64,000 nt of DNA from an uncultured beta proteobacterium (GTDB taxonomy: Bacteria > Pseudomonadota > Gammaproteobacteria > Burkholderiales > Rhodocyclaceae), in contig CAINHS010000006.1 of NCBI GenBank assembly GCA_903848955.1, positions 1 to 64,000 on the forward strand, written 5' to 3'. A program made the translations under genes and the position numbers. Each line of letters starts with the position of its first letter. Position 1 is the stretch's first letter. The notes beneath the pieces were generated by a model. That model did no database searches, was not told where the DNA came from, and saw only the letters and a list, made by a program, of their open reading frames with translations. This document shows, piece after piece, positions 6,462-50,109 of this stretch.

Positions 6462-6485
6462 GGTACGACCTCCTTGAATACAATA

Positions 6486-6512
6486 TTAGCACTCTTGAGG
6501 TAGGAGTGCCAA
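6486..6512 (-). promoter_or_regulatory. CIRCE operator (HrcA binding site) of rpoH
   Basis: TTAGCACTC, nine bases, GAGTGCCAA: the CIRCE inverted repeat with one mismatch to the consensus right arm GAGTGCTAA and the correct 9-base spacer. It lies between the rpoH start and the candidate -10 at 6534-6539, the usual position for HrcA operators. HrcA control of rpoH has been described for betaproteobacteria. Confidence 0.9.
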
Positions 6513-6524
6513 TAAGCGGATAAG

Positions 6525-6547
6525 TTCCCGACAATTATAGTCGGGAA
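6525..6547. promoter_or_regulatory. 8-bp inverted repeat over the candidate rpoH -10 box
   Basis: TTCCCGAC, seven bases, GTCGGGAA is a perfect 8-bp inverted repeat. Its spacer includes ATTATA, which reads TATAAT on the rpoH strand (6534-6539) and would place transcription start near 6527, just upstream of CIRCE. No strong -35 box is seen. The repeat could be a second operator or an RNA hairpin at the 5' end of the message. Confidence 0.5.
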
Positions 6548-6811
6548 TAGCCGGCGCCAGGTGCAGGCCCGTCAAGCGTGGCGCGAAGGACGCCCAGCTC
6601 GGAGGCGGTGGAAAATTCAGGCTTGAGTGATGCACCGGTACAAAAGTCCATGCCGCGGCGCTGGCCAGCTATCTGAATACAGAGGAACTATTGTAGTGGA
6701 CCCGGTGAAAACCGGGATCCCGGATCGCTCCGCGGGCGGAAGTTAGATCGCCCGGCAGGCCAACGATGCAAGGGCAAAGCGCTGCCCGGACGCTGCCGGC
6801 CTGGTTTGTCC
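6548..6811. other. Intergenic stretch with no recognised gene
   Basis: Together with the rpoH regulatory sites this makes a 350-base gap. I see no ORF with a ribosome binding site, no tRNA and no convincing terminator. A 38-codon minus-strand ORF (start near 6651) exists but has no Shine-Dalgarno sequence. Confidence 0.5.
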
Positions 6812-7201
6812 TCAGACCTTGGGCGGAGTGCCTTGAGGCGGGCGCTTCGACTTCTTGAAAAAACGCTTCGCGGGTTTGGCTCCCGGCGTTTGATCCGGCC
6901 GGCGTGCCTGCTCCGGGCGCCGTCCCTGCCCCTGCCCCTGACCTTGGCCCGGCGGTCCCTGGCGCCGCCCCGGTTCCGGCTGCGATCCCTGAATGCGATT
7001 GCCCGGTGCGAGACAGATTTCGAGTTCGATGATCTCGTCCCAGATGGCATCAGTCCGCTGGTGGTCCGGGATGGCCAGAAGTTCGCGCAAACGTCGGCGC
7101 GGATCGGGAAGTTGCGGTTCGTTGCGCGCGGGTTCCGCAGCTGGCTGCTCGATGGCCGTAGGCTCGAGAGGAGGCGGTTCGATGGGTTGTTCTTCGCTCA
7201 T
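6812..7201 (-). CDS. Hypothetical protein, Pro/Gln/Arg-rich, basic C-terminus
   Basis: A 129-residue protein of unknown function. A proline/glutamate-rich N-terminus is followed by an ordered core at about residues 33-60 (R-R-R-L-R-E-L-L-A-I-P-D-H-Q-R-T-D), then a low-complexity G-Q repeat and a strongly basic tail with K-R-F-F-K-K-S-K-R. The core is the kind of segment conserved in relatives; the tail suggests nucleic-acid contact, which is inference only. Three in-frame ATGs (7228, 7207, 7201) compete and none has a strong ribosome binding site. Confidence 0.6.
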   Translation of the reverse strand: MSEEQPIEPPPLEPTAIEQPAAEPARNEPQLPDPRRRLRELLAIPDHQRTDAIWDEIIELEICLAPGNRIQGSQPEPGRRQGPPGQGQGQGQGRRPEQARRPDQTPGAKPAKRFFKKSKRPPQGTPPKV

Positions 7202-37538: not shown

Positions 37539-37649
37539 GGTGCGCCGGCAATTTCCGATCTCAGGGGTTTCGCCAATGCCATCAATCCGCATCCATCATC
37601 CTGTACACTGAACCGAAGAAGAGTGCCGGTTCAGGGGAGACGAGAAGGT

Positions 37650-38447
37650 ATGGGTAAGATCATTCGATTGCTGTTCCCGCTGTTGTGTCTGGCGGCGACA
37701 GCATCAGCCATCGGCGGGGATCTGGCGGCCGGTCATGAGCCGTCGTTTCCGTCGCAGGGGGTGTTGTTCGTGACGCCATTGCTGTCGGAGGCGGAGGAGG
37801 TGGAATACCGTGCCCGCATACGAACGGCAAAGGATCAGTCTGAACGGGAGCGGATACGCGCCACGCATTACGATCTGATGCGGACCCGCGCCAAGGAGCG
37901 CGGTTATGACTTGCCGGCGACCCGCCCGGCTGCGACCGGTGTGACCGGGGAGGAATTCGGCCCGAAACTGCTGGGCGAGGAGGAGCGCGCTGCCCAGCGG
38001 GCGAAGCTGCGCGCTGCCAGGATCGAAGCGTCCGCGGCGGGCCCAGCACCGGCACGGCCGGAACCCGTCGTTCAGTTGGCCAAGCCGGTCAATGCCGCAA
38101 CGGTTGCCGAAACCGGAAAGAGCAAAGCGGAGGGAGTGGCCGTTCCTTCGTCTCGCACACCGGCTCCGCTGCCGGCTTCAGTTCCGGCGCCTGCCGCCTC
38201 CGCCCAATCCGCCGCCGCGACTGGCGCCAAGGCTGCGCCGGCGGCTGAGGGGCGGCCGGCAGCGCTCCTGTTGCCCGGAATCGATACGATTTTCGGTCAG
38301 CAACTGATGAGCGAGGAGGAGAAGGCAGCGTTCCGCGCCCGCCTTCGCCGGGCCAAGACCGACGAGGAGCGCGCGGCAATCCGTGCCGAGCGTGACCGGC
38401 AGATCGACCTGCGCGCCAAAGAAAAGGGCGTGAATCTGCCCAGGTAA
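37650..38447 (+). CDS. Exported protein with repeated charged helical module
   Basis: A 265-residue protein of unknown function with a signal peptide (M-G-K-I-I-R-L-L-F-P-L-L-C-L, cleavage after A-S-A). A module of about 45 residues (L-[LM]-S-E-x-E-x-x-x-[YF]-R-A-R-[IL]-R-x-A-K ... R-A-K-E-[RK]-G-x-[DN]-L-P) occurs at about residues 40-90 and 220-265, with a shorter version at about 110-130 (L-L-G-E-E-E-R-A-A-Q-R-A-K-L-R-A-A-R). An Ala/Pro-rich linker separates them. The modules look like amphipathic helical hairpins. Confidence 0.8.
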   Translation: MGKIIRLLFPLLCLAATASAIGGDLAAGHEPSFPSQGVLFVTPLLSEAEEVEYRARIRTAKDQSERERIRATHYDLMRTRAKERGYDLPATRPAATGVTGEEFGPKLLGEEERAAQRAKLRAARIEASAAGPAPARPEPVVQLAKPVNAATVAETGKSKAEGVAVPSSRTPAPLPASVPAPAASAQSAAATGAKAAPAAEGRPAALLLPGIDTIFGQQLMSEEEKAAFRARLRRAKTDEERAAIRAERDRQIDLRAKEKGVNLPR

Positions 38448-38468: not shown

Positions 38469-38675
38469 CTACCCCGGTTTGAGGCTCTCCGGCGTTGCCG
38501 GCCAATGGATGACCGTATCGGCCAGGGCCACGGCATCCAGTATCCGGTCGTAGTCGCATCGCGAAAGATCCTCGACCGTCACCCGGGTGCCCAACTGAGC
38601 AAAGGCCGCCGCCAATTCATCAATCCGGCCGCGCCCGCTTTCGCCTGCATGCAGGAACAATATGTTCTGATTCAT
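38469..38675 (-). CDS. Small protein, possible DsrE/DsrH-like fold
   Basis: A 68-residue protein: beta strand N-I-L-F-L-H-A-G, helix E-L-A-A-A-F-A-Q-L, strand V-T-V-E-D-L, helix and strand A-D-T-V-I-H-W-P. This alternation resembles a cut-down DsrE/F/H fold. One cysteine (Cys40). It is the last gene of the leftward sulfur set and its start overlaps the previous stop (ATGA). The assignment rests on context and pattern only. Confidence 0.6.
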   Translation of the reverse strand: MNQNILFLHAGESGRGRIDELAAAFAQLGTRVTVEDLSRCDYDRILDAVALADTVIHWPATPESLKPG

Positions 38676-38926
38676 ATCACATACACCACGTTGGCGGCAG
38701 CCATTTCCTGTGCCAGTCGTCCGCACTGCTGCGCGGCGTCCGGAAGCTGTTCGCAGGGGACATCGGCGAAATCCAGCACTTCGCGCTGTTCGGCAATGGC
38801 CGGAGTGTCTTCGAGTTCGCCGACGACAACAACTCTGACGATGTCGCTGAGCAGGGCGAGTCCGACTGCGACGCGCAATGCTTCGACCTTGTTGTTCCTG
38901 GCAACGACCAGTATTTGTTTTGTCAT
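38672..38926 (-). CDS. Small DsrE-fold-like protein
   Basis: An 84-residue protein with Q-I-L-V-V-A-R-N-N-K-V-E-A-L-R-V-A-V-G-L-A-L-L, a strand V-R-V-V-V-V-G-E-L, two cysteines (near 58 and 68) and a final strand N-V-V-Y-V-I. It resembles DsrE-type sulfur-relay proteins but is about 40 residues shorter than DsrE or DsrF. It lies six bases after the next gene and overlaps the following one, so all three small genes are translated together. Confidence 0.65.
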   Translation of the reverse strand: MTKQILVVARNNKVEALRVAVGLALLSDIVRVVVVGELEDTPAIAEQREVLDFADVPCEQLPDAAQQCGRLAQEMAAANVVYVI

Positions 38927-38932
38927 GAGGGT

Positions 38933-39229
38933 TCAGAAGACGATGACGCGATCGCACAGGTGGGCCAGTTCGGCGTTCTGGTACTGGCTGCCCATGGTGA
39001 CGCCGGGCGCGATGTCGCCACCGCCAAAATGGTCCCAACTGTGTTCGCAGACCGTAACTTGAATAGCCCCGGCGCCAGCCAGTTCCTGCAGGGCGCGGGA
39101 ATGAGCGATGCGTACTCCGGCGTCGGTGAGAAAACAGCGAATCTGCCAGCCCCGTTTCGCCGCCGCAGCGGCCAGGCCGACCAGGTGATCTTCTTCCGCA
39201 TCACTTGCCGCAACCAGTCCCAATAGCAT
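38933..39229 (-). CDS. Small DsrE-fold-like protein
   Basis: A 98-residue protein starting L-G-L-V-A-A-S-D-A-E-E-D-H-L-V-G-L-A-A-A-A, with strand Q-I-R-C-F-L-T-D-A-G-V and a conserved-looking V-C-E-H-S-W-D whose Cys sits where DsrE-family proteins can carry an active thiol. The C-terminal strand D-R-V-I-V-F closes the fold. GGAGGAGG precedes the ATG. Likely a persulfide carrier partner of the TusA protein, by context. Confidence 0.68.
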   Translation of the reverse strand: MLLGLVAASDAEEDHLVGLAAAAAKRGWQIRCFLTDAGVRIAHSRALQELAGAGAIQVTVCEHSWDHFGGGDIAPGVTMGSQYQNAELAHLCDRVIVF

Positions 39230-39250
39230 TTGCCTTGCCTCCTCCTGCCC

Positions 39251-39382
39251 TCAATGGGCCTTGCCGGAATTGACCTGGGGCACCGCCCCGCCAGGCGCAT
39301 CGCCCGGGCCCATGGTGTAGGCCATGATGAGGCCGAGGAAGGCCAGAACAATGGCGATGACAATGGCAATGTACTTGTTCAT
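39251..39382 (-). CDS. 43-residue single-span membrane peptide
   Basis: ATG 39382 follows GGGAGAG at a good distance. The product has one transmembrane helix (residues 4-23, Y-I-A-I-V-I-A-I-V-L-A-F-L-G-L-I-M-A) and a short Gly/Pro-rich soluble tail. It lies between the TusA gene and the DsrE-like genes, in the same direction with short gaps. Function unknown; small membrane peptides in operons often stabilise a neighbouring membrane complex. Confidence 0.65.
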   Translation of the reverse strand: MNKYIAIVIAIVLAFLGLIMAYTMGPGDAPGGAVPQVNSGKAH

Positions 39383-39396
39383 GCCGCGCTCTCCCG

Positions 39397-39654
39397 CTAG
39401 CCCTTGCGAATCTGCCAGCGCATGGTCGACTTGCCCGTTTCCTTTTCTTGGGAAAGGATCTGGTCGCCATTGGCTTGGCACATGGCCGCAATCGACTCGC
39501 CCGAAGACGGATTGTCGAACACCACTTCGAGGGTATCGCCCTGTTTCAGTTTTTCCAGACCCTTCTTGGTGTACATCTGCGGGTGCGGGCAGACATAGCC
39601 TTGAATATCCAGCATGTAGCTTCCCTCGCCCATCTTCTCGAACTTGACTGCCAT
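39397..39654 (-). CDS. TusA-family sulfur carrier protein
   Basis: An 85-residue SirA/TusA-fold protein with the signature V-C22-P-H-P25 (CPxP) whose cysteine carries persulfide, then L-E-K-L-K-Q-G-D-T-L-E-V-V-F-D-N-P. TusA relatives beside YeeE/YedE transporters (TsuB in E. coli) receive sulfur from imported thiosulfate. It lies 33 bases downstream of the transporter gene. Confidence 0.9.
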   Translation of the reverse strand: MAVKFEKMGEGSYMLDIQGYVCPHPQMYTKKGLEKLKQGDTLEVVFDNPSSGESIAAMCQANGDQILSQEKETGKSTMRWQIRKG

Positions 39655-39687
39655 AGCCTATTGACCTCCAATGAATTGCAGCATTAC

Positions 39688-41154
39688 TCAGAAATCGTCA
39701 AGCGCGGCCATTTCCTTGGCCATCTTGCGCTCTATCCACCAGTTGAAGAATTTCACGCCGATCAGTCCGCCGACAGTCATGCCCAGGCCGAACAGCCAGC
39801 CGGAGGGATCGCCGTTGGTGACGGTGGCGAAAAAGGCGCCGATGTTGCAGCCCATGCCGATGCGCGCGCCTATGCCCATGAGAATGCCGCCGAAAATGGC
39901 CCAGAAGGCGATTTCCAGGCTCGGCACCTTGAACTGGAACTCGTTGTTGAGCAGCGCCATCACGGATGCGCCGCCGATCAGGGACACGGACATCCAGAGC
40001 ACCGGATTCAGCAGCGGATTCGGCACGCCATTGTCGAGACCGAAAAAGATGCTGTCCATGACGTTGTAGCCAAGTTTCTGCATCACCCATGCCGCACCTT
40101 GCGCTTCCTGGGTGGTGATATAGAAATAGCCGGGATCGAATACCGTATCCTGAATGCTGAGTCCGGCGGTGTGCCCCATGGCGGCGAGCAGTTCGCCGGC
40201 GTTGGCGATGCCCAGCCGTTGCTGCAGTCCCTGTATCACCCACATGTGCAGTCCGGCGGCAACCCCGAGCACCAGTCCGGCGATTGCAGTCCTCTTCGAT
40301 GCCGTTATCATGCTCCAGTATCCTGCCAGTTCGGTGCGGAAGCCACGGTAGGCGGCTTCCTTGCCGCGCAGGTAACCCTTGCGGTACCAGTTGAAGTAGA
40401 TGGCGGCGAGAATGATGATGGCGGGAATGATGGCGTTTACCAGTGAGTTGCCAATGAACGCCGCGGCGATCGGATTCTTGAACCCGAGCAACTCGCCGAC
40501 CGTGGTTGCGGAGAGGTTCCAGACATACCCGGCCAGGAATTGATCGTACCAGCCGTCGGAGGGCGTCACCGCCGCCGGCAATCCCTTTTCCAGGGCTGAT
40601 GCTGCCCATGTTGCGGGCACCAGGTGGTTCAACCATCCGCCGGCATCGACCAGAAATACCTGGGTGAAGCTCAGGGAAAGGACGACACACAGCGCAGCCA
40701 TGCTGCCCTCGCCGGTCTTGTAGAGGGAACCCGAGGCGCAGCCGCCGGTATAGACCATGCCGATGCCGAAAATCAGTCCGCCGACCACAGAATAGAGCCC
40801 GATGGGCGAGGCGTGGAAGGTGCTCTTGCCTGCAACGGTAACGTAGGCCGAAACCAGGCTGAACAGAACCACGGCGATCATGATGCCGACCGCCATGCGC
40901 GGGACGCCGACAGCGAACAGGTCGCGGATGGCGGATGCCATGCAGAAGCGGCCGTACTGGAGCGACATGCCGTAGATGAAGCCGAACCACAGGTAGGCGG
41001 AAAAGTAGATGTAGCGGTGATCGACAGCGAAGGAGGACAGCGAACAGAGGGCGAAGAAACCCAGCACCATGAAGGCACGGACGACGTTGCGCGGTTCGGT
41101 AACGTTCACCACGGGGGTGTCGACATTGGTCGTATTGCACGGAAGGCTGCTCAT
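39688..41154 (-). CDS. YeeE/YedE (TsuA-type) sulfur-compound transporter
   Basis: A 488-residue inner-membrane protein with about 10-12 hydrophobic helices in two inverted YeeE/YedE halves. Each half carries cysteine-glycine motifs lining the path in TsuA: G-R-F-C-M-A-S, T-G-G-C-A-S-G-S-L-Y-K and G-M-G-C-N-I-G-A-F-F. E. coli TsuA imports thiosulfate. The protein is longer than TsuA (about 350) because of a central region of about 100 residues between the halves (W-Y-D-Q-F-L-A-G-Y to the Y-R-K-G-Y-L-R-G-K-E-A-A-Y-R-G segment). Its ATG overlaps the upstream stop (ATGA). Confidence 0.92.
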   Translation of the reverse strand: MSSLPCNTTNVDTPVVNVTEPRNVVRAFMVLGFFALCSLSSFAVDHRYIYFSAYLWFGFIYGMSLQYGRFCMASAIRDLFAVGVPRMAVGIMIAVVLFSLVSAYVTVAGKSTFHASPIGLYSVVGGLIFGIGMVYTGGCASGSLYKTGEGSMAALCVVLSLSFTQVFLVDAGGWLNHLVPATWAASALEKGLPAAVTPSDGWYDQFLAGYVWNLSATTVGELLGFKNPIAAAFIGNSLVNAIIPAIIILAAIYFNWYRKGYLRGKEAAYRGFRTELAGYWSMITASKRTAIAGLVLGVAAGLHMWVIQGLQQRLGIANAGELLAAMGHTAGLSIQDTVFDPGYFYITTQEAQGAAWVMQKLGYNVMDSIFFGLDNGVPNPLLNPVLWMSVSLIGGASVMALLNNEFQFKVPSLEIAFWAIFGGILMGIGARIGMGCNIGAFFATVTNGDPSGWLFGLGMTVGGLIGVKFFNWWIERKMAKEMAALDDF

Positions 41155-41567
41155 TTCGTTGATTCTCTCCCTGTTGGCCCGGCGCTCCCGGCGCCTGTTG
41201 CCTGTCCGGGCGGCAGGCCATTCTGGCGCTTGCGTAGATAGATCTTCTGGCAATCGCCCGCCGAGACGGTGGCCAGATGATCGCAGTTGCAGTTCGGCAG
41301 CATGAAAGGAATGGTCTCTACCGCGCTCAGGTTATCGGAAACCACCTCCAGCACTGTTCCTGGCTTGGCCCTGTCAATGGTCAGCTTGGTGATCAGGACG
41401 GTACGCAGGCAGTTGTCGCCGACGAAGTTGAGCGATTTGTCCAGTTTGACCACACCTTGCCCGGGAAGATCGACCTCCCGGATTCTCGACCCGACGGGAA
41501 GAGAAAGGCGATGACGGATACCGGACAACGCACGTCCAATTGAACCAAAAAAACAGGATTGAGCCAC
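41151..41567 (-). CDS. TusA-like protein with modified active site
   Basis: A 138-residue protein with a TusA-like core at about residues 40-115 (K-L-D-K-S-L-N-F-V-G-D-N-C53-L-R-T-V-L-I-T-K). The family CPxP appears as C-L-R-T, so the cysteine is kept but both prolines are gone. A second cysteine group, P-N-C-N-C-D-H, is unusual for TusA. A 35-residue N-terminal and a basic C-terminal extension flank the core. GTG 41567 follows AAGGA at a 9-base distance. First gene after the leftward sigma-54 promoter. Confidence 0.7.
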   Translation of the reverse strand: MAQSCFFGSIGRALSGIRHRLSLPVGSRIREVDLPGQGVVKLDKSLNFVGDNCLRTVLITKLTIDRAKPGTVLEVVSDNLSAVETIPFMLPNCNCDHLATVSAGDCQKIYLRKRQNGLPPGQATGAGSAGPTGRESTK

Positions 41568-41601
41568 TCACCATTTCCTTACATGCTTGTACGTAGGCAT
41601 A

Positions 41602-41617
41602 AGCAATTTGTACGCCA
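41602..41617 (-). promoter_or_regulatory. Sigma-54 promoter (leftward, sulfur-transport genes)
   Basis: On the minus strand the sequence reads TGGCGTACAAATTGCT: TGGC at -24 and TTGCT at -12 with exactly ten bases between GG and GC, matching TGGCAC-N5-TTGCW. Transcription would start near 41590, about 23 bases before GTG 41567. Confidence 0.72.
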
Positions 41618-41664
41618 TTCATCGAGGTGCATGAATTGGCAGTGAAATGGTGAAAAGGGCGGTG

Positions 41665-41688
41665 GTTGCGCCAATTCCATATCGCAAC
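41665..41688. promoter_or_regulatory. GTTGCG/CGCAAC inverted repeat, candidate activator site
   Basis: GTTGCG, 12 bases, CGCAAC lies about 85 bases upstream of the leftward start and about 210 bases upstream of the rightward start, a range typical for enhancer sites of sigma-54 activators. Binding by the response regulator at 48712 is inference. Confidence 0.35.
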
Positions 41689-41793
41689 ACTTTGGCCGCC
41701 CATGGCCGGCAGTACTTGGATTTTGCAACATCCGATCCCGCGCCGGATTCCGGCGGCGGCTTGCAATTTGAAAGGCCGCATGCGTGCCTGATG

Positions 41794-41805
41794 AATTGTG
41801 CAATT
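41794..41805. promoter_or_regulatory. AATTGTGCAATT palindrome, candidate activator site
   Basis: An AATTG-TG-CAATT inverted repeat about 90 bases upstream of the predicted rightward sigma-54 start. The half-site TTGCAATTTG at 41761-41770 is related. Binding is inferred from position only. Confidence 0.3.
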
Positions 41806-41860
41806 GCCGGCCGCTGCGGCCGGGTTGGCTAAGTGTTGGATAGTAAATGAAGAAATGGTT

Positions 41861-41876
41861 TGGCATGGATAATGCT
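41861..41876 (+). promoter_or_regulatory. Sigma-54 promoter (rightward, rhodanese-cytochrome genes)
   Basis: TGGCATGGATAATGCT has TGGCA at -24 and TGCT at -12 with exactly ten bases between GG and GC. Transcription would start near 41888, leaving a 69-base leader before ATG 41957. The nearby sigma-54-dependent regulator gene strengthens the call. Confidence 0.75.
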
Positions 41877-41956
41877 CTTGCTCACCCGGCGGCCATGGCA
41901 GGCGTTTGTATGCGGATGGCCGAAGCAGAAATCGAAGTTTCCAAATGGGGGGGAGC

Positions 41957-43489
41957 ATGAACAATTGCGATCACATAGATGAATTCGCTCAGCGGTCCTT
42001 GAGCCGGGTTACCACGCCGCTGATGTTGATTCTGGTGGCGTTTGTCGCGGCGTGCGGCGGCGGGGGCGGCGAAGACAAGAATAGTGGCAGCTTGACCTCC
42101 AGTGCGCTCAAGGTGAGCACCGCGGCGGAAATGGCCGTCGAGTCGGCATCCGACTACAACACCAACACCTACGGGCTGATCACCGGTGCGACGCTCAAGC
42201 GCTGGAAGAACGACTGGGTCAATCAGCGTCCGGCCGGCATCACGGGCAAACTGGTCATCCTTCAGGTCACTGTCGGTGAAGCCGGCTACGAGTACATCAA
42301 GACCAATGGCACCAACGCCTTCACCTATCTCGCGGCCAGTGCCGAGTGGACCATGACGCGCTCCAACGGCATGATCAGCACGACGACCATGGTGCTTGAC
42401 GGGCCGAGCATGGATGCCCAGTTGAAGAAGTACGATATCGATCCGCAGAATGACATGATCGTCATCGCCACGGGTACCGGTACGGCCAGCAATGTCATGG
42501 GCCAGGGCCGCGCCTGGTACGCGCTTCGTTACTGGGGGGTCGATGCCAAAAACATTGCAATCCTCAATGGCGGCAACAAGTGGCAGAACGACGTCAGCCT
42601 TGGTGCGGGCGCCATGGTGGCCGCAACTGACTACAGCCTTACCGGCGCCACGCCGCCCTTGACCGGCCTGAAGTCGGTCAAGAGCCTGGCGATAGACAAC
42701 ACGGTCATGCAGGCGACCGTCGGCGACGTCATGGCCGTCGTACCGGCTACCGACAGCAACGTGAAGAGCGACGGCATCTTCCTCTGGGATGCGCGCACCA
42801 TCACCCAATACAGCGCCGGCCTGAAACGGGAGAAGCAGGATGGCACCGGCACCAGCGTCTGTGCCACCGGCGCCTACTGCGATGCGGCGGCGACCTACGA
42901 CTACATGTTATCGTTCCAGAACGGCGGAACCCGGCAGGGCCATCCCAACGGGGCCATCGACCTCAACTACCTCAATCTGGTCGATGCGGCCAAGGGAGGC
43001 AGTTTCAAGTCGAAGGCCGAACTGGCCGCTTACATGAACGGCGAAGCGGACGCCAGCGGTTACGGCATGGTGGACGGCAGCTACAATCTGGCCGGCGCCG
43101 GCAATGCCTACCAGGCGGGCGATACCGTGATCACTTACTGTGAAACCAGTCAGCGGGCGATGGTCACGGGTATGGCCAGCGCGGTCATTCTCGGCCATCC
43201 GACGCGCATCTACGACGGCGCCATGATCGAGTGGAATTCGCTGTCCTACATGAAGGATCTGCTCGGCAACTACATCCTGCCCGAGAACTCGCCATGGCGG
43301 ACGGACCTGAAATCCTTCTACCGGGCTGCCAGTTCCTTCACGCTGGTGCAGCTGCGCAAGATCATCGATCCTTTTGCCGTCAATGCGAACGGCATTATCG
43401 CTGAGGACAAGGCCTACAAGACGCCGGCGGCCAGCAGCACTTCAAGGAGTGGCGGCGGTGCCGCGCCGGCCAATCCCTGCGGCGGTTAG
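41957..43489 (+). CDS. Rhodanese-domain lipoprotein (ExtH-like)
   Basis: A 510-residue extracytoplasmic lipoprotein. The signal has lipobox V-A-A-C (Cys33) followed by a run of five Gly. Two rhodanese-like halves follow; the C-terminal one keeps the active loop C395-E-T-S-Q-R (CxxxxR) preceded by the D-T-V-I-T-Y strand, so sulfur or selenium transfer is likely. The order rhodanese lipoprotein, multiheme cytochrome, porin recalls the Geobacter ExtHIJKL conduit, where ExtH is a rhodanese lipoprotein; this likeness is by family, not by alignment. GGGGGGGAG precedes the ATG. Confidence 0.85.
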   Translation: MNNCDHIDEFAQRSLSRVTTPLMLILVAFVAACGGGGGEDKNSGSLTSSALKVSTAAEMAVESASDYNTNTYGLITGATLKRWKNDWVNQRPAGITGKLVILQVTVGEAGYEYIKTNGTNAFTYLAASAEWTMTRSNGMISTTTMVLDGPSMDAQLKKYDIDPQNDMIVIATGTGTASNVMGQGRAWYALRYWGVDAKNIAILNGGNKWQNDVSLGAGAMVAATDYSLTGATPPLTGLKSVKSLAIDNTVMQATVGDVMAVVPATDSNVKSDGIFLWDARTITQYSAGLKREKQDGTGTSVCATGAYCDAAATYDYMLSFQNGGTRQGHPNGAIDLNYLNLVDAAKGGSFKSKAELAAYMNGEADASGYGMVDGSYNLAGAGNAYQAGDTVITYCETSQRAMVTGMASAVILGHPTRIYDGAMIEWNSLSYMKDLLGNYILPENSPWRTDLKSFYRAASSFTLVQLRKIIDPFAVNANGIIAEDKAYKTPAASSTSRSGGGAAPANPCGG

Positions 43490-43550
43490 TGCTAACCTAG
43501 CCGGGTAGCGGCGCACGGGCGCTGCGCCCGGCGCGCCGGAAACGGGCAAA

Positions 43551-43585
43551 GGGTGTCGGCTGCAGAAGCTGGCACCCGTTTTTTT
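43551..43585 (+). terminator. Intrinsic terminator between rhodanese and cytochrome genes
   Basis: GGGTGTCGGCT pairs, with one or two G-T pairs, with AGCTGGCACCC around a 5-base loop; seven Ts follow. It stands 10 bases before the GTG of the five-heme cytochrome, so it could attenuate expression of the downstream genes. Confidence 0.75.
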
Positions 43586-43595
43586 CAGGATAGCA

Positions 43596-44879
43596 GTGAC
43601 TATTTCTTGGCCGGGCCGGCATTGGAGTTCGCTGCCTTTGTGGGGCCGCAGTGTCCTGCTGCTGGTCGTTCTGACCTCAGCGGCAGGCGCGGCGGCCATT
43701 TTCTATCGGGCGGCCGTCAAGGCGCCGCCGGATCCGGTGGCGCAGTTTCTCTCCGTGCATTGGGCGCAGCCCGTTCCGCCGCAAGGGGATCCGCCGCCCC
43801 GATTCACGGCTCTGGAAGCATCTTTGGCGCCCGAGTCGTGTGCCGCCTGTCATCCCGCGCAATTTGCCGACTGGAACACGAGCCTGCACAGCAGGGCGAT
43901 GGGGCCGGGGATACGCTGGCAACTGCGTGTATTCGGGCAGGGCGAAGCCAATGACTGTCTGCGCTGCCATGCGCCCTTGGCGGAGCAGAAAGCCCTGGCG
44001 GCTCTGGAATATGGCTGGGCCAATGCGCCGACGGCACCCATGCCTGACTACGTCAGCGCCGACCTGCATCTGCGCGGCAACACCTGTGCTTCCTGCCATG
44101 TCCGCCGGCACCAGGTCTTCGGACCGCCGGCGGCCCATCACGATCCGGCACCCCACGGCGGCTTTGTTGAACAGCAGGCCTTTGGCGACAGCCGTTTTTG
44201 CGCTCCCTGTCATCAGTTCCCCGCCGGTGCCCGCAGCCTGGAAGGCAAACTGATCGAGAATACCTACGAGGAGTGGCGCGCCAGTCCGTCGGCCCGCGCC
44301 GGAGTGAGTTGCCAGAGTTGCCACATGCCGGATCGCCGCCATGTCTGGCGCGGAATTCATGATCCCGACACGGTGCGCAAGGGGTTGCGCCGCGAGCTTG
44401 AACTTAAGCGTCTTGACGACGGACGGCTCGACATCCGGGCCCGCATTACGGCTCCGGGCGTAGGTCATTATTTCCCCACCTATGTGGTACCCAAGGTTCT
44501 GATCAGCTTGCACCTGGTGGGGGCAGGAGGTGAGCGGGAACTCGCCCGCCAGGTCATCGGCAGGACAGTCAGCGTGGACATGGACAAGGAATGGTCGGAC
44601 ACGCGCATTCCTCCCGGCGGCAATTCCGAACTTGCGCTGCAGGTAGCGGCGCCACCGGCGCCGTACCGTGTCGAAATGCGGCTCGAGGTGGCACCGGCGG
44701 AGCACTATGCGCGCATGTATCGCGCCATGTTGCAGCGGAATCCCGACATGGAGGCTGCGACCCTGGCGTTGCTGCGCGAAGCTCTGCGGCAGGCCGATGC
44801 CGCATCGTATCGCCTCGAGGCGGTCGTCGTGGCCGGACCGGCGAACGCCGGTGAAACCGCCCGTGCGATTGCAAATTGA
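43596..44879 (+). CDS. Five-heme cytochrome c, membrane-anchored
   Basis: A 427-residue protein with an N-terminal signal anchor (about residues 17-37) and five C-x-x-C-H heme sites at residues 82, 121, 164, 202 and 239. The C-terminal half (about 260-410) lacks heme sites and looks like a beta-sandwich domain, with H-Y-F-P-T and P-P-G-G-N-S. The first site context, C-A-A-C-H-P-A-Q-F-A-D-W, resembles cytochrome c554-type multiheme proteins. It starts with GTG after AGGA. Likely an electron carrier in the periplasm or at the outer membrane. Confidence 0.9.
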   Translation: MTISWPGRHWSSLPLWGRSVLLLVVLTSAAGAAAIFYRAAVKAPPDPVAQFLSVHWAQPVPPQGDPPPRFTALEASLAPESCAACHPAQFADWNTSLHSRAMGPGIRWQLRVFGQGEANDCLRCHAPLAEQKALAALEYGWANAPTAPMPDYVSADLHLRGNTCASCHVRRHQVFGPPAAHHDPAPHGGFVEQQAFGDSRFCAPCHQFPAGARSLEGKLIENTYEEWRASPSARAGVSCQSCHMPDRRHVWRGIHDPDTVRKGLRRELELKRLDDGRLDIRARITAPGVGHYFPTYVVPKVLISLHLVGAGGERELARQVIGRTVSVDMDKEWSDTRIPPGGNSELALQVAAPPAPYRVEMRLEVAPAEHYARMYRAMLQRNPDMEAATLALLREALRQADAASYRLEAVVVAGPANAGETARAIAN

Positions 44880-45029
44880 AATCGCCTGCCGCCCGCCACC
44901 AATTTTTGCAATGGCTATAAATCCCGTGAGTGCCGGATAACTATATGTTTTGGAAAGGGCTCACTGTAAGGCACATAACGTGCTTGTGCATTCGCGGCAG
45001 CTCGTGTGCTGTGAATCGGGAAGCTCGAC

Positions 45030-45347
45030 ATGCGGTGGATTGCGGGTTTGATCATGATTTTTCTGGGGTATGGGATGCCGGCTCATGCGGCCGCTCAATC
45101 TTCGTCGCCCCCGGATTCGCCAGTCGCGGCTGATGGTATTGATCCGCCCTCGGGCAAAGGGCGTCTGCGCTTCAAGTCACGCGGTCCCGTATGCATGTGC
45201 GGCGATGGTCTCAGCGAAAGGGATATTGAGCGAGCCATGGTGCGGCAAGGACTGGCAAAGGCGCAGGCCGATACGGGTATGCCCCGGGTTGAGGGCGGCA
45301 GGTCGGCAATGGATAAACAAACACCAAGCGGAGGAGTTGCACAATGA
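45030..45347 (+). CDS. Small secreted protein with a C-M-C motif
   Basis: A 105-residue protein with a signal peptide (residues 1-22, cleavage after A-H-A) and a single Cys pair in G-P-V-C-M-C-G-D-G-L-S-E-R-D-I-E-R-A-M. CxC pairs can bind metal or act in disulfide exchange. It is not recognised as a known family. It overlaps the next cytochrome start (ATGA), and 150 bases without a gene separate it from the five-heme cytochrome. Confidence 0.7.
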   Translation: MRWIAGLIMIFLGYGMPAHAAAQSSSPPDSPVAADGIDPPSGKGRLRFKSRGPVCMCGDGLSERDIERAMVRQGLAKAQADTGMPRVEGGRSAMDKQTPSGGVAQ

Positions 45348-45859
45348 CAATGACAATGATGATGAGAACACTGGTTTCAAGATGGCGCCGGCACAAGGCA
45401 GCACTGCTGGCGCTGTCGGCCGTTGCAGCGTTCTTCGCGATAACCGGCTTCGCCTGGCTGTCGGTTCTTGGCGAGGACGGCGGCAGTAGCGCCGAGGCCC
45501 GTCCGTTGGCCGGTTGGGGTCAGGAAGCGCTTGGCGACATCCGGCGTCATGCGGCGGCGCTATCGCCGATCGCCGACGCCAATGCATGTGGCATGGGCGC
45601 CTCATCATGCTTCAAGTGTCATAGCGGCGGCACCCGCGCCGCGGCGCCGAAAATGGATCCCAAGAGCGGCGCCTGGCACGCAGACCACAAATCGGTGAAC
45701 GGATCCTGTGTGGCGTGCCACAAGGGAAATGCGCGCCTGGTGAAGAAGGAACTGGCGCACGAGGGATTGATCAAGGATTCGCGCCAGAAAATTGAGACCT
45801 GCGAATCGTGCCACAAGACCGGCAATACCGCGGAACTTGTCAAACGTTATCAGCGATAG
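45344..45859 (+). CDS. Three-heme cytochrome c
   Basis: A 171-residue protein with an N-terminal membrane anchor (about residues 19-42) and heme sites C-F-K-C-H (89), C-V-A-C-H (122) and C-E-S-C-H (153). The histidine-rich spacing resembles small cytochrome c7/c3-type modules. Between the secreted CxC protein and the porin, it probably passes electrons through the periplasm to or from the outer membrane. Confidence 0.88.
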   Translation: MTMTMMMRTLVSRWRRHKAALLALSAVAAFFAITGFAWLSVLGEDGGSSAEARPLAGWGQEALGDIRRHAAALSPIADANACGMGASSCFKCHSGGTRAAAPKMDPKSGAWHADHKSVNGSCVACHKGNARLVKKELAHEGLIKDSRQKIETCESCHKTGNTAELVKRYQR

Positions 45860-45876
45860 TTCGAGGGGGAACGAGA

Positions 45877-47067
45877 ATGAATATGAAGACGGGCAAGAGC
45901 AAGAATTTCCGAGTTGGACTGGGCCTCCTGCAGGCCGGTACGCTACTTCTGGCGGGCTTGAGCGCGCCGGCGCTGGCGGGTCCGACCATAAACTTCAACA
46001 ATGAAAGCTACCTGACCGTCAGCTATTCGCTGCAGGTCTGGGCGCAGAATCGGGGCTACACTTCAGCCACGGATGCCGGGAGCGTCACCGAGTTCTTCCT
46101 GCGCCGCAATCGGCTCACCTTCAACGGCCAGGTCAATGACTACGTCGGTTTCTACGCCCAGCTGGAAGCGGGCAATGACGGCAAGGCCGGCGACGTGGAC
46201 AAGAGCGTCTATTATCGCGACGCCTACGTTACCCTCGATTACTCAGATCCGGCGCGCTTCATCGTCGGACGCTTCAAGAACACGTTTTCACGGGAAAACC
46301 TGGAAGCCTGCCTGGAACCCCTGACCCTGGATCGCGCCGAATGGCTGGGCTATACCCCGTACGCCGGCAGCCGCGATACCGGCGCTGCGGTCTGGGGCAA
46401 CCTTGCCAACGGCATGTTCCAGTATCGGCTGATGATGGCCAATGGCCGCCAGGGCGACAATGTCGTGAAGAAGGGTCCGCGACTCACAGCCCGCGCCCAT
46501 GTCAGCTTGCTTGATCCTGAAACCGAGTACGGCTACCTCGGCACCTATCTCGGCACCAAGCGGGTGCTTACCATCGGCGTCGCCCAGGACTTCCAGAAGG
46601 ACGTTGCCTACGGCAATTTTGCGGCCAAGACCCTGCCCAAGGACTACAAGGCATCGACGCTCGACATTTTCTATGAGCAGCCCACTGCCAGCGGCACTTA
46701 CACGCTATCCGGTGCGGTCATGCGGTACAGGACCGGCGATGCGATCAATGCCGCATCGGCAGATCCCAACCTGCCGGAGAATTCCGAACTCGGCGGGTCC
46801 TATGTGAAGGCCGGATATCTGCTGCCGGCCAAGGTTGGCATCGGCCGCTTGCAGTTTTTCGGGCGCCACGAAAATCGCGACTATCACCTGACTTCGGGCT
46901 ACGGCGACAGCAGCTGGAACAGCCTCGGCGCGAACTACTATATCGACGGACAGAAACTGAAGCTTACGGCCGAATTCGCCAAGGTGGCTTTCGACAAGCA
47001 GAATCCGACCGATCCGTCCCGGCGTGACTACAAGCAGGCAACCGTGGGATTGCAGTTCCAGTTCTAA
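45877..47067 (+). CDS. OprO/OprP-like outer-membrane porin
   Basis: A 396-residue barrel protein with a signal peptide (cleavage after A-L-A near residue 34), alternating amphipathic strands and a C-terminal Phe (G-L-Q-F-Q-F). R-R-N-R-L-T-F-N-G-Q-V and F-I-V-G-R-F-K are typical of the phosphate-selective porin O/P family, which passes anions. The Geobacter ExtI protein is also a barrel beside a rhodanese lipoprotein. GAGGGGG precedes ATG 45877. Last of the structural genes before the regulators. Confidence 0.88.
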   Translation: MNMKTGKSKNFRVGLGLLQAGTLLLAGLSAPALAGPTINFNNESYLTVSYSLQVWAQNRGYTSATDAGSVTEFFLRRNRLTFNGQVNDYVGFYAQLEAGNDGKAGDVDKSVYYRDAYVTLDYSDPARFIVGRFKNTFSRENLEACLEPLTLDRAEWLGYTPYAGSRDTGAAVWGNLANGMFQYRLMMANGRQGDNVVKKGPRLTARAHVSLLDPETEYGYLGTYLGTKRVLTIGVAQDFQKDVAYGNFAAKTLPKDYKASTLDIFYEQPTASGTYTLSGAVMRYRTGDAINAASADPNLPENSELGGSYVKAGYLLPAKVGIGRLQFFGRHENRDYHLTSGYGDSSWNSLGANYYIDGQKLKLTAEFAKVAFDKQNPTDPSRRDYKQATVGLQFQF

Positions 47068-47110
47068 GCAGAAGGGTAGTGTCCCCGGGTTGATGGACGA
47101 AAGACCTGCC

Positions 47111-47142
47111 GCAACCGACCGGCCTGCGGCAGGTTGCGGCTT
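47111..47142 (+). other. GC-rich hairpin after the porin gene
   Basis: ACCTGCCGCA pairs with TGCGGCAGGT around an 11-base loop about 40 bases after the porin stop. There is no T-tract, so it may act as an mRNA-stabilising or Rho-associated structure rather than an intrinsic terminator. Confidence 0.4.
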
Positions 47143-47172
47143 CATCCCCGGCTGAGATGCGGGCCCACGGCG

Positions 47173-47201
47173 TTGCGGTTTGGCGGGCACCCCGCTACAC
47201 T
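47173..47201 (+). promoter_or_regulatory. Possible sigma-70 promoter for the kinase-regulator pair
   Basis: TTGCGG (47173-47178), 17 bases, TACACT (47196-47201). This would let the sensor and regulator be made without sigma-54. A minimal GG-N10-GC pattern overlaps at 47181-47196 but its -12 part is poor. Confidence 0.35.
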
Positions 47202-47278
47202 GCGGAGCATGGGAAGTGCAGGCGTTGGCCGATAGCGAGGAGTACTGCCGGCACTGTTCTCATGGGAGGGTGGCGAAA

Positions 47279-48715
47279 ATGAGAATACTGGCGGCTGCTC
47301 GTGCGCGGGTCTACCCCGTGTGGTTGCTGACATTCGCCCTGGTCGTCCTCGCTCCCGTGCTTGTGCTCGGGCTGCGCACCAGCCGGATGCCGCTGCCCGA
47401 CTATCCCTACTTCACCATTGGCTTGTTCTGCGTGATGCTCGCCGCAGCCTTGAGCTATGTTCTTTCCCGCGGCCTCTTCGCCGTGCATCGGGGCATCAAA
47501 GCGGCTACCCGGGGTGACCTCAAACCGGTCAGGACATCCCCCGCCATTGCTTTCCTGTTCGGTCCGGTGATCGAGGATTTCAACACCCTGGTCGGCAATA
47601 TCGGATCCCTGTTCCGCGACATGGAGCGGAGCCAGGTCACCATTATCGGTGAGCGCAACCGGAACGACGCGATACTGCGCAGCCTGCCCGGGGTGCTGAT
47701 GACAGTGGACAGCAACTTCGAGGTGACCCTGTCCAATGATCTGGCCCAGCGCCTGTTCGGTCTTTCGGCGAGCGAACTGCTGGGACGGAATATTTTCGAC
47801 CTGCTGCAGATGAACGACGACGGCCGCGAACTGATGCGCGAAGCCTTTCTCTACGAGCAGCCGATCTGCAATCAGGACCTTGTCCTCAGCAACGGCGATA
47901 CGACCCGTCATTTCACCCTCAATCTGACGTTTTTCCGCGAGGCGAGAAACACGCACGATTACTGTGCAGCCTTCATGCTGCAGGACATCACTGATGTCAA
48001 GCGCATGCAGGACCTGATCCATCGCTCCGAAAAGTTCCTGGCCATCGGGCACCTTGCCGGTGGCGTCGCCCACGAACTCAACACGCCGCTGGGCACCATC
48101 GTCGGCTATGCGCAACTGCTCATCGAAGGGGGCGGCAACGAGGCCAGGCGTCTGGATTTTGCCCGCCGCATCTACGGCGAGGCCAAGCGCTGCTCGCGCA
48201 TCATCGAAGACCTCCGTGCCCTGGCACGCAGGGACGTATGTCGGCCGGAGACTTGCAACATCGATGCCGTCATAGGCGACGTGGTAGAAACGGTGTGCAA
48301 CTGTTCGAGCAAGAGCCACAGCGCCAGGATCACCACCGATCTGGCCGGCGATATCGCGGTGCAGGGTGGTGCCGGCCAGTTGGATATCGTGCTGGTCAAC
48401 CTCATCATGAACGCGGTGCAAGCGGCTGCAGGTGCTGCCGGAGAGCCGCTGGTGGAGATCAGCAGTATCGTGCAGGGCGACAATGTCGTGGTCAGCATCG
48501 CGGATAACGGCGAAGGCGTTCCGGCCGCGCAGCGACAGAAGATCTTCGATCCTTTTTTTACTACCAAGACCAACAGCGCCGGCATAGGGCTCGGCTTGGC
48601 GATCAGCCTGGCCATCGTCACCCGCATCGGCGGCAGCCTGCGCTGCGATTCGGATTGTCCTGATGGCGCCCGCTTCATTCTGACCCTGCCCATCGCCGCG
48701 CAGGAAAGACCATGA
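47279..48715 (+). CDS. PAS-domain sensor histidine kinase
   Basis: A 478-residue inner-membrane kinase. Two transmembrane helices (about 13-32 and 45-63) enclose a short periplasmic loop of about a dozen residues, followed by a HAMP-like linker, a PAS domain (about 128-245), a HisKA helix with H265 in G-G-V-A-H-E-L-N-T-P-L-G, and a HATPase with N-L-I-M-N-A, D-N-G-E-G-V and G-I-G-L-G-L-A. The tiny periplasmic loop suggests the signal is sensed in the membrane or through the cytoplasmic PAS domain. GGGAGGG precedes ATG 47279. Pairs with the regulator at 48712. Confidence 0.92.
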   Translation: MRILAAARARVYPVWLLTFALVVLAPVLVLGLRTSRMPLPDYPYFTIGLFCVMLAAALSYVLSRGLFAVHRGIKAATRGDLKPVRTSPAIAFLFGPVIEDFNTLVGNIGSLFRDMERSQVTIIGERNRNDAILRSLPGVLMTVDSNFEVTLSNDLAQRLFGLSASELLGRNIFDLLQMNDDGRELMREAFLYEQPICNQDLVLSNGDTTRHFTLNLTFFREARNTHDYCAAFMLQDITDVKRMQDLIHRSEKFLAIGHLAGGVAHELNTPLGTIVGYAQLLIEGGGNEARRLDFARRIYGEAKRCSRIIEDLRALARRDVCRPETCNIDAVIGDVVETVCNCSSKSHSARITTDLAGDIAVQGGAGQLDIVLVNLIMNAVQAAAGAAGEPLVEISSIVQGDNVVVSIADNGEGVPAAQRQKIFDPFFTTKTNSAGIGLGLAISLAIVTRIGGSLRCDSDCPDGARFILTLPIAAQERP

Positions 48716-50109
48716 GAACGATGGCCAATACCCGGCTTGCCGGCCCGGTGCAGGGCAGCGGCATTCGCCTGGCGATTCTGGTGGTGGAGGACGACGAGCC
48801 GATGCGGGAAATGATCGCCGCTGTCCTGGAGCCGCTGGACGCCACCGTGCTGGTGTCGAAGAACGCGCAGCATGCGATGGAAATGCTGGAGAAGCAGGAG
48901 ATTGCCGTCGTCCTCACCGATCTGCGCATGCCGCAGGCCGACGGCATCGATATTCTCAATTATTCCCGACGGTGCAACCCGCTGACCCAGGTCGTCCTGG
49001 TCACCGGTCACGCCACGGTGGAGTCGGCGATCGACGCCATGAAAGGCGGGGCTTTCGATTATCTGCGCAAGCCCTTCGAACCGGCGGACCTGCGGCGGGA
49101 GATCGGCAAGGCTCTTGAGTACTATCTGTTGAATCGTGAAAACGTAGGGCTGCGCGACTTTTCGCCTGCCGTCAGCAGCGACGACCTGGTGGGAAAGAGT
49201 TCTGCCATCAGCACGGTCAATCGTCTGATCGGGGTTGCAGCCGCCTACGAGTGCTGTGTATTGATCACGGGGGAATCGGGTACCGGCAAGGAGATCGTTT
49301 CCCGCCGCATCCACGCCGAGAGCGAACGCAAGGACCGTCCCTTCATCGCGGTGAATTGCGCCGCAATTCCGGAAACCCTGATCGAGAGCGAACTGTTTGG
49401 TTACCAGCGAGGCGCTTTCACCGGAGCGGAACACGCCAAGATCGGGCTGTTCGAGGCGGCCAGTGGCGGCACGCTGTTCCTCGACGAGATCAACAATACT
49501 TCTCTCGCATTTCAGGCCAAGCTGTTGCGGGTGCTGCAGGACGGCACGTTCTTCCGCGTCGGCGACACCAAGCCCCGCTTCGTGGATGTGCGCCTGCTGG
49601 CCGCCAGCAACAAGATGCTCAATGAACTGGTCGGCAATGGAGACTTCCGCATGGATCTCTACTATCGCCTGAAAGTGATCGAAATCGATATCCCGCCGCT
49701 GCGGGATCGCCTCAGCGACATTCCGCTGCTGGTCAATTATTTCATCGCCCGGCATTCCGTGCGCCTGAAGAAGCGCGTGAAAGGCATCAGCACCAGGGCG
49801 CTGAATATGCTGGTGCGCCACAACTGGCCTGGAAATGGTCGCGAACTGGAGAACATCATTCAGCGCATGATCATCTTTACGGCCACGGATGTTCTTGATG
49901 TCGACGTGGTGCCGCCGGAGTTGGCCGATGCGAAGGAACCGCGAACGGCGGTGGCCGACCATGTCTGGCCGCAGAAACTGGAGGAGGTGGAGATGTCCGT
50001 CATCGCCAGGACGCTGGAGGAGAACAACGGCAACCGGGCCGTGACGGCAGAGATTCTTGGCATCGACAAGTCCACTCTCTGGCGCAAGATCAAGCTGTAC
50101 AAGCTCTAG
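48712..50109 (+). CDS. Sigma-54-dependent response regulator (NtrC family)
   Basis: A 465-residue activator with a receiver domain (phospho-acceptor D70), AAA+ domain with G-E-S-G-T-G-K-E (187-194) and the sigma-54 contact G-A-F-T-G-A (234-239), and a C-terminal Fis-type helix-turn-helix (V-T-A-E-I-L-G-I-D-K-S-T-L-W-R-K-I). Its ATG overlaps the kinase stop. The two sigma-54 promoters at 41602 and 41861 are the obvious targets, by proximity. Confidence 0.94.
   Translation: MRTMANTRLAGPVQGSGIRLAILVVEDDEPMREMIAAVLEPLDATVLVSKNAQHAMEMLEKQEIAVVLTDLRMPQADGIDILNYSRRCNPLTQVVLVTGHATVESAIDAMKGGAFDYLRKPFEPADLRREIGKALEYYLLNRENVGLRDFSPAVSSDDLVGKSSAISTVNRLIGVAAAYECCVLITGESGTGKEIVSRRIHAESERKDRPFIAVNCAAIPETLIESELFGYQRGAFTGAEHAKIGLFEAASGGTLFLDEINNTSLAFQAKLLRVLQDGTFFRVGDTKPRFVDVRLLAASNKMLNELVGNGDFRMDLYYRLKVIEIDIPPLRDRLSDIPLLVNYFIARHSVRLKKRVKGISTRALNMLVRHNWPGNGRELENIIQRMIIFTATDVLDVDVVPPELADAKEPRTAVADHVWPQKLEEVEMSVIARTLEENNGNRAVTAEILGIDKSTLWRKIKLYKL

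Follow-up and report, generated by a model that had tools for sequence, protein, structure and literature searches.

A conserved module linking an ExtI porin and an ExtH-like rhodanese lipoprotein to YeeE, TusA, and DsrE-type proteins, a candidate route for sulfane sulfur

Why would a porin, a rhodanese lipoprotein, and multiheme cytochromes be encoded beside a YeeE/YedE transporter with TusA and DsrE-like partners, and what could such a set carry? The question is raised by an island spanning positions 38469-50109 of a 64,000-nt stretch of DNA (termed the window; contig CAINHS010000006.1 of assembly GCA_903848955.1, positions 1 to 64,000) from an uncultured betaproteobacterium of the Rhodocyclaceae, whose genome has 3.62 Mb in 151 contigs and is 99.97% complete. 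A preliminary description of the window, made from its letters, had seen in the island one regulated module joining outer-membrane, periplasmic, inner-membrane, and cytoplasmic parts. Open reading frames (ORFs) and Pfam and NCBIfam matches recovered every gene that it had named, and the linkage proved to be conserved: the two halves, which we term the ext half and the yeeE half, form one unit of about thirteen genes, in which the ext half is a shortened set of the Geobacter type. We propose that this unit serves the import of sulfane sulfur (derived from polysulfide or elemental sulfur, perhaps from thiosulfate), switched by a two-component system and sigma-54, in sulfur-oxidizing beta- and gammaproteobacteria, a proposal that we think has about an even chance of being right.

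Linkage of the two halves

Loci for comparison were fetched with ExtI alone. The scan, based on two peptide patterns, reaches close relatives of this ExtI only and is no census; it returned 36 named loci, from genomes titled Thiobacillus, Rubrivivax, Solimonas, Lautropia, or less resolved beta- and gammaproteobacteria, and none from Geobacter or the Desulfobacterota, though ExtI is reported there (PMC5877670; cited papers are represented throughout by excerpts). Close relatives among the loci are not independent, and two loci (L021 and L029) come from one genome (G167), both being included in the counts of conservation, sigma-54 sites, YeeE distances, and motifs given below.

Four of the 36 loci end inside the set at contig ends. 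In all 32 others, yeeE and tusA lie in the same gene run as the ext genes, and 28 of these show, as far as the contig reaches, the order tusA2-yeeE-tusA1-dsrE-dsrH-extH-cyt5-cyt3-extI-kinase-regulator, with a gene for a small CxC protein recognized in some. The divergent layout described for the window recurs in three of the 28 (L026, L028, and L032) and is a local variant, the other 25 loci being read in one direction. Four variant loci (L040, L042, and L049 from Solimonas and L053 from Rubrivivax gelatinosus) keep a core of extH, cyt3, extI, yeeE, tusA1, and cyt5, joined in the three Solimonas loci by a recognized CxC gene; no DsrE genes, tusA2, kinase, or regulator were recognized in these four.

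Across 250 genomes of the order, ExtI exceeds its cut-off in two, the host included (16 match at 1e-20, the remainder being weaker porins), and across 398 genomes of the phylum in the host alone. The second order genome (G167) carries the whole set in one direction, with protein identities of 39-65%. A YeeE of the type found in YTD clusters (1e-60) is present in 3 of the 250 genomes, two with ext genes and one (G145) without. On the independence of the halves, which the preliminary description had taken as the point that could count against it, the answer is thus one-sided: the ext half was never seen apart from yeeE and tusA in the informative loci, whereas the yeeE half occurs without ext, both in G145 and in published YTD clusters. 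The G145 locus (L068, G145:C27) holds a YTD cluster whose YeeE is 61% identical to that of the window, no ext genes, and, about 6 kb from the cluster, an exported protein with a rhodanese-like start. YeeE distances correlated with those of eight partner proteins at r values of 0.75-0.96, the lowest being for ExtH (27 rows, with species relatedness left in and one genome present twice). Carriage of the set as plasmid or virus cargo was rejected, as no ExtI match was found in plasmids at 1e-20 and none was confirmed in viral contigs.

Proteins and candidate sulfur-carrying residues

The proteins are described here in the order in which sulfur would meet them. The substrate would enter through the ExtI porin (45877..47067, + strand), which scores 332 bits against the NCBIfam ExtI model (NF040900; cut-off, 150). 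Its structure model is a 16-strand barrel (mean pLDDT, 83) with OprP and OprO as the nearest PDB structures. Cys145, present in 37 of 38 sequences, falls in a highly conserved stretch corresponding to the long loop after strand 5 (a low-confidence part of the model, with block means of 52-59), the position at which porins of this kind have their constriction loop L3. The barrel of the MtrB conduit has 26 strands, and a cytochrome conduit through ExtI was rejected, its 16-strand OprP-like model being small compared with known conduits. The transfer of electrons outside the cytoplasm that had been put forward for the island stays a proposal, and the predicted barrel speaks against a conduit filled by cytochromes.

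From the porin, sulfane sulfur would pass to the rhodanese cysteine of the predicted outer-membrane lipoprotein ExtH (41951..43489, + strand) and be carried on a flexible C-terminal cysteine arm. The assignment combines the NCBIfam ExtH match, the structure model, and PDB matches: the protein scores 88 bits against NF040901, below the curated cut-off of 200, and all 30 aligned copies match the family by E-value (best, 1.4e-36). It has a lipobox cysteine (Cys35), an active-site cysteine (Cys397, opening the C-E-T-S-Q-R motif, which by the start codon used here begins at residue 397 and not at 395, as first described), and a C-terminal Cys510 in NPCGG. The model (mean pLDDT, 86.4) best matches tandem rhodaneses in the PDB (Foldseek probability, 1.00; TM, 0.42 by query length), and residues 461-478 of the mature chain are disordered in it, with the cysteine near the end. 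The tail cysteine, in ..NPCGG, ..NPCG, or ..NGCG, is present in 33 of 33 complete C termini from 32 genomes, two truncated copies (L058 and L059) being excluded. SoxY carries sulfur on the cysteine of a C-terminal GGCGG (PMC6067878). The ExtH tail resembles this carrier arm by analogy, with a motif that is not identical, and ExtH is no SoxY.

Two cytochromes and a small exported protein accompany ExtH. The five-heme, ExtKL-like cytochrome (43596..44879, + strand; five CxxCH) has its heme motifs conserved in 35-37 of 37 copies; against the ExtKL model (NF040886), it scores 43 bits in the window and 59-60 bits in L047 and L050, under the cut-off of 250. The three-heme cytochrome (cyt3; 45344..45859, + strand), weakly similar to ExtS and below cut-off, has an extra non-heme cysteine, Cys82, in 36 of 37 copies. 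The CxC protein (45030..45347, + strand), known from its translation and without an NCBIfam match, occupies an ExtJ-like place and retains Cys55 and Cys57 in 21 of 21 recognized copies, that of the window included. These three proteins may hold thiols at a suitable redox level or trade electrons with sulfur; thiol reduction, oxidative loading of sulfur onto ExtH, and electron transfer to or from sulfur are possible roles. No frame with at least six CxxCH motifs was found in the window, which hence has no ExtM/N-like cytochrome, or in 35 of the 36 named loci. In L053 (Rubrivivax gelatinosus), a frame at 5588-7021 that closely precedes extH contains ten CxxCH motifs and is possibly a decaheme cytochrome such as ExtM/N or else a chance frame in GC-rich DNA. 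Genes for ExtO, ExtP, or ExtQ were not noticed among the translated ORFs around the island, where no profile search was aimed at them.

In the inner membrane, YeeE would move sulfur through a three-cysteine channel to TusA. The long YeeE/YedE protein of the TsuA/SoxT family (39688..41154, - strand; Pfam Sulf_transp, 2.2e-34) scores 86 of 400 and 60 of 645 bits against the TsuA NCBIfam models, below both cut-offs; a profile alignment to the TsuA structure 6leo pairs its Cys71, Cys139, and Cys436 with the three cysteines of TsuA. SoxT1B depends on all three of these residues, and TsuA cannot function without two of them (PMC11582611). The TusA sulfur carrier (39397..39654, - strand; Pfam TusA, 8.9e-18) has a CPHP motif whose cysteine, Cys22, is conserved in 34 of 34 copies. 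A second TusA-fold protein, encoded by tusA2 (41151..41567, - strand; Pfam TusA, 1.1e-7), conserves Cys53, in DNCL, in 28 of 28 copies and, unlike the other TusA, has no proline after the cysteine.

In the last predicted step, DsrC would receive the sulfur from a DsrEFH type II set and rDsrAB would oxidize it; in vitro, such a transfer to DsrC is documented for recombinant cable-bacterial DsrEFH type II (PMC13293266). The leftward half has the layout of YTD clusters, called yeeE-tusA-dsrEFH type II in that 2026 paper, a connection that the preliminary description had not made; yeeE, tusA, a dsrE-like gene, and another two small genes are grouped in a single run. The claim of three small DsrE-like proteins stands for the largest (38933..39229, - strand; Pfam DsrE, 8e-5), whose Cys61 (numbered in the window protein and not aligned to Cys67, the catalytic cysteine of the cable-bacterial complex) is invariant in 30 of 30 copies; the two smallest are DsrE-like by position and literature, without a Pfam match. 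The second (38672..38926, - strand; 84 aa) has a homologue in 28 of the 36 named loci, the other eight being four cut by a contig end and the four variants without DsrE genes. The third (38469..38675, - strand; 68 aa, MNQNIL..) was recognized by tblastn in two loci only (L028 and L050), and an ORF of 58-71 aa stands in its place in 11 of 11 loci checked. A short membrane peptide read from the translation between tusA and dsrE (39251..39382, - strand) is apparently not conserved, there being no room for it in either locus checked (L021 and L026). Just outside the island, the window encodes a TonB-dependent receptor with a Plug domain (35078-37483) and an Ala/Pro-rich, exported-looking protein without a Pfam match (37623-38447), neither of which was recognized beside the module in the named loci.

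Sigma-54-like sites and the TTGCAAWTTGA motif

The rightward half ends with a PAS sensor kinase (47180..48715, + strand; Pfam PAS, HisKA, HATPase) and a sigma-54-dependent response regulator (48712..50109, + strand; Pfam Response_reg, Sigma54_activat [1.8e-66], HTH_8). We propose that this pair turns on both halves through a TTGCAAWTTGA site and -24/-12 promoters; binding of the motif by the encoded regulator is part of this proposal. The kinase has four cysteines (338, 354, 359, and 375) around the end of the HisKA domain, each in 31 of 32 copies, and redox or sulfane-sulfur sensing by them is possible. Its standing as a proven sulfur sensor was rejected, the basis being conserved residues alone.

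Sigma-54 control, also part of the preliminary description, gains support from site positions. Scores are fractions of the maximum, with weights and a 0.86 threshold set by the analyst. In the window, -24/-12-like sites precede the leftward half (41602..41617, - strand; 0.82), extH (41861..41876, + strand; 0.86), and the extJ-cyt3-extI genes (44969..44984, + strand; 0.80). Individually they are unremarkable, as the 64 kb hold 18 sites of at least 0.80; they count because their positions are conserved and the motif lies upstream. Of 27 loci, 24 have a site of at least 0.86 in the 300 nt ahead of tusA2, always 127-154 nt from the anchor (random stretches, 25/540), and 25 of 36 have one in the 700 nt ahead of the cyt3 anchor (random stretches, 79/720). 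Before extH, such sites were found in 6 of 33 loci (background, 32/660), namely L030, L033, L047, L050, L051, and L055, the last being only 20 nt from the anchor and probably coding. The divergent relatives have a site in a similar place before extH, scoring 0.85 in L026 and L032 and 0.78 in L028. In the four loci without a regulator, the best scores before extH or cyt3 were only 0.63-0.75.

Upstream stretches share TTGCAAWTTGA, and TTTGCAA occurs in 38 of 49 of them and in 6 background stretches. The labels that mark stretches as carrying the motif were taken from the very regions that had yielded it; motif-to-site distances and a whole-genome pattern search in 4 of the 37 module genomes are more independent of its discovery. 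With at most one mismatch, the motif matches twice in the 64 kb, each time exactly 100 nt before a sigma-54-like site: one putative enhancer site, TTGCAATTTGA (41761..41771, + strand), lies in the shared intergenic region, ahead of the 41861 site and some 145 nt away from that of the leftward half, and the other, TTGCAAATTGA (44869..44879, + strand), overlaps the end of the cytochrome gene, upstream of the site at 44969. No exact motif copy of its own was found for the leftward promoter beyond the shared intergenic one. The window and the 36 named loci together have 40 motif matches. For 29 of these, the best sigma-54-like site in the range of 20-200 nt is 96-100 nt downstream, and for 5 it is at 118-121 nt. 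The other six are in L025 (182 nt), in L056 (25 nt), and, as single matches without a good site, in L030, L046, L054, and L055. The four loci lacking the regulator have no match.

Exact matches in whole genomes numbered three in the host (G000; two in the island), two in G167 (one in the island), and two each in G626 and G631 (all in the island), and the pattern read backwards had none in these four genomes. In G000 and G167, the matches outside the island lack any sigma-54-like site scoring 0.75 or more within 260 nt. A simple palindromic enhancer was rejected, as no dyad occurred in more than 4 of the 49 upstream stretches.

Host metabolism, rival readings, and known systems

The host genome has soxB and a dsr locus with dsrAB, two DsrE-type genes, dsrM-like and dsrL-like genes, a DsrC-family gene, dsrK (named by its place), and tusA nearby. 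The dsrE and dsrL-like genes suggest, from gene content and not from a tree, a Dsr system of the oxidative type. This locus (L062, G000:C15:70000-89999) has DsrE-type genes of its own, so that two kinds of DsrE set coexist in one genome. Among the 29 genomes with DsrE genes in the module, 27 had a DsrA match (1e-20), as against none of the four variant genomes; this two-by-two count covers the 37 module genomes minus 4 with a cut locus, 3 of which have DsrA. SoxB (1e-100 or better) is likewise present in 27 of the 29. The genomes G167, G625, G627, and G636, of the Thiobacillus type, each have two above-cut-off DsrA matches on different contigs. As dsrA is also present in four of the five family relatives without ExtI that were searched, rDsr can do without the module.

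Several points weigh against sulfane-sulfur import ending in rDsr. The Solimonas and Rubrivivax gelatinosus core exists without dsrA, a close dsrK, or a true soxB (one weak SoxB match of 79 bits, of a kind seen in 6 of 14 control genomes); therefore, it cannot depend on rDsr. Three of these four genomes are Solimonas and are not independent. Two loci, L041 and L050, carry DsrE genes in genomes without a DsrA match, and as dsrK is also missing from the first and reduced to a 34% match in the second, incompleteness of metagenome-assembled genomes may not be the whole answer. Given the other DsrE-type genes in the host dsr locus, the type II set may be dispensable for rDsr. The cytochromes are unexplained. 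In Geobacter, ExtI affects the reduction of selenite and tellurite (PMC5877670), and in Desulfurivibrio dismutans, YeeE RS05145, judged by its number probably the YeeE beside the porin there, went undetected by proteomics (PMC12142623). The histories of the halves may also be partly separate or recombined, because the window's YeeE is nearer to the divergent relatives L026, L028, and L032 (67-72% identity, versus 54% to L021) while its ExtH is not (53-54% versus 56%); the ExtI values are 60-63% versus 63%. No expression or biochemical data on the combined set were found in the parts searched of the PubMed Central open subset. In terms of the sulfane-sulfur proposal, a core that occurs without Dsr and Sox points to delivery to TusA as the step common to all hosts, with the sulfur meeting different fates in different ones.

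A bolder version, which we advance tentatively and suspect of going too far, would make the module the first recognizable complete route by which zero-valent sulfur reaches the cytoplasm from beyond the outer membrane. The porin would be gated by its cysteine, and the rhodanese, at the surface or in the periplasm, would bear a swinging arm like that of SoxY; redox cytochromes, a YeeE channel, and a relay of TusA and DsrEFH would complete the route, all controlled by a single sigma-54 switch that senses sulfur. Geobacter Ext would then be the relative of a chalcogen import route and not a selenite reductase as such.

Selenite and tellurite, listed as possible substrates in the preliminary description, are suggested by Ext homology only. 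Their reduction or detoxification, as by the Geobacter ext cluster and with YeeE and TusA handling selenium, would agree with an ExtI above its curated cut-off, with the family E-values of all 30 ExtH copies, with the impaired selenite and tellurite reduction of a Geobacter extI mutant (PMC5877670), and with the selenium metabolism served by YedE/TusA relatives, as their NCBIfam names indicate. However, no frame in the window reaches the six CxxCH motifs sought for an ExtM/N-like cytochrome, the ExtKL-like cytochrome has no conserved non-heme cysteine that could replace selenocysteine (whose place in ExtKL was not known to us), the set includes DsrE genes, and the module co-occurs with dsrA and soxB; we consider this function improbable.

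We judge plain thiosulfate uptake to be improbable to the same degree. ExtI would be a thiosulfate porin and ExtH a thiosulfate sulfurtransferase, as is its best PDB match, and TsuA, whose cysteines YeeE shares, imports thiosulfate (PMC11582611). Yet YeeE misses the TsuA cut-offs by a wide margin (86 of 400 and 60 of 645 bits), the two cytochromes go unexplained, and soxB gives another route for thiosulfate to 27 of the 29 hosts that have DsrE genes.

Multiheme cytochromes in the set could instead send electrons out to polysulfide or elemental sulfur, in respiration or in the reductive branch of disproportionation, with the YTD half handling the products. Sulfur disproportionation was the first process with which YTD clusters were connected, and Desulfolithobacter has more of the YTD proteins when it disproportionates (PMC9751629), a link judged to be poorly supported in PMC13293266; ExtI relatives occur in Desulfurivibrio and Desulfocapsa (PMC5877670). 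A host with soxB and a dsr locus bearing dsrE and dsrL-like genes argues against extracellular sulfur reduction, as does the predicted 16-strand OprP-like porin, which is small for a heme conduit, and we think such reduction a little less credible still. The weakest alternative, two unrelated operons adjacent by chance, could appeal to the divergent halves of the window, to the YTD cluster without ext in G145, and to the differing nearest relatives of ExtH and YeeE in the window, and is given next to no weight. All 32 informative loci join the halves, and of the 28 among them that have DsrE genes 25 are unidirectional, which already refutes chance adjacency for these lineages; promoter type and motif are also common to both halves.

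Sulfane-sulfur import thus being our preferred reading, the island names a defined set of candidates for a poorly understood step, the route of solid or polymeric sulfur through the outer membrane. Membrane proteins for elemental-sulfur transport are unconfirmed experimentally in acidophilic and neutrophilic sulfur oxidizers alike (PMC10045233), and the island offers candidates for a carrier cysteine and a pore cysteine, together with a promoter/motif pair. In titles and abstract beginnings of the PubMed Central open subset, we found neither the combined module nor its control by sigma-54 described, nor the motif or the tail of ExtH. Each half is already known, and their co-localization has been touched on before in D. 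dismutans. There, a porin, secreted sulfurtransferases (rhodanese lipoproteins), and YeeE lie together and import of polysulfide across the outer membrane was suggested (PMC12142623); in the excerpted text, this is a short inference to which DsrEFH, cytochromes, a tail, or a promoter are not tied.

With YTD or yeeE-tusA-dsrEFH type II clusters (PMC9751629, PMC13293266, PMC13047784), the island shares the run of yeeE, tusA, and three small DsrE-like genes, to which it adds a second tusA, an ext-type outer-membrane set, and a sigma-54 two-component system. Its host also has a dsr locus with dsrE and dsrL-like genes, whereas oxidative-type dsrAB is given for only 4.7% of type II genomes (PMC13293266). 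With SoxYZ-SoxT and TsuA-TsuB (PMC11582611, PMC6067878), it has in common a three-cysteine YeeE transporter, a TusA-type acceptor, and a cysteine near a Gly-rich C terminus that in the island is a candidate carrier; here, the putative carrier arm is on a tandem-rhodanese lipoprotein instead of SoxY, and an outer-membrane porin belongs to the set. The extHIJKLMNOPQS selenite/tellurite cluster of Geobacter (PMC5877670) is alike in its ExtI porin, ExtH rhodanese lipoprotein, five-heme ExtKL-like cytochrome, and small protein in an ExtJ-like place. That cluster has the multiheme cytochromes ExtM (12 hemes) and ExtN (10 hemes) near extHI, as well as ExtO, ExtP, and ExtQ (a Rieske protein, a cytochrome b, and a membrane protein), whereas the window lacks an ExtM/N-like cytochrome, its ExtH, ExtKL, and ExtS counterparts score below cut-off, its ExtH has the conserved ..NPCGG tail (the tail of Geobacter ExtH lying outside the comparison), and its ext genes are joined to YeeE and TusA. 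The island thereby connects two puzzles that have been described separately, the ext genes of Geobacter and the YTD or DsrEFH type II genes.

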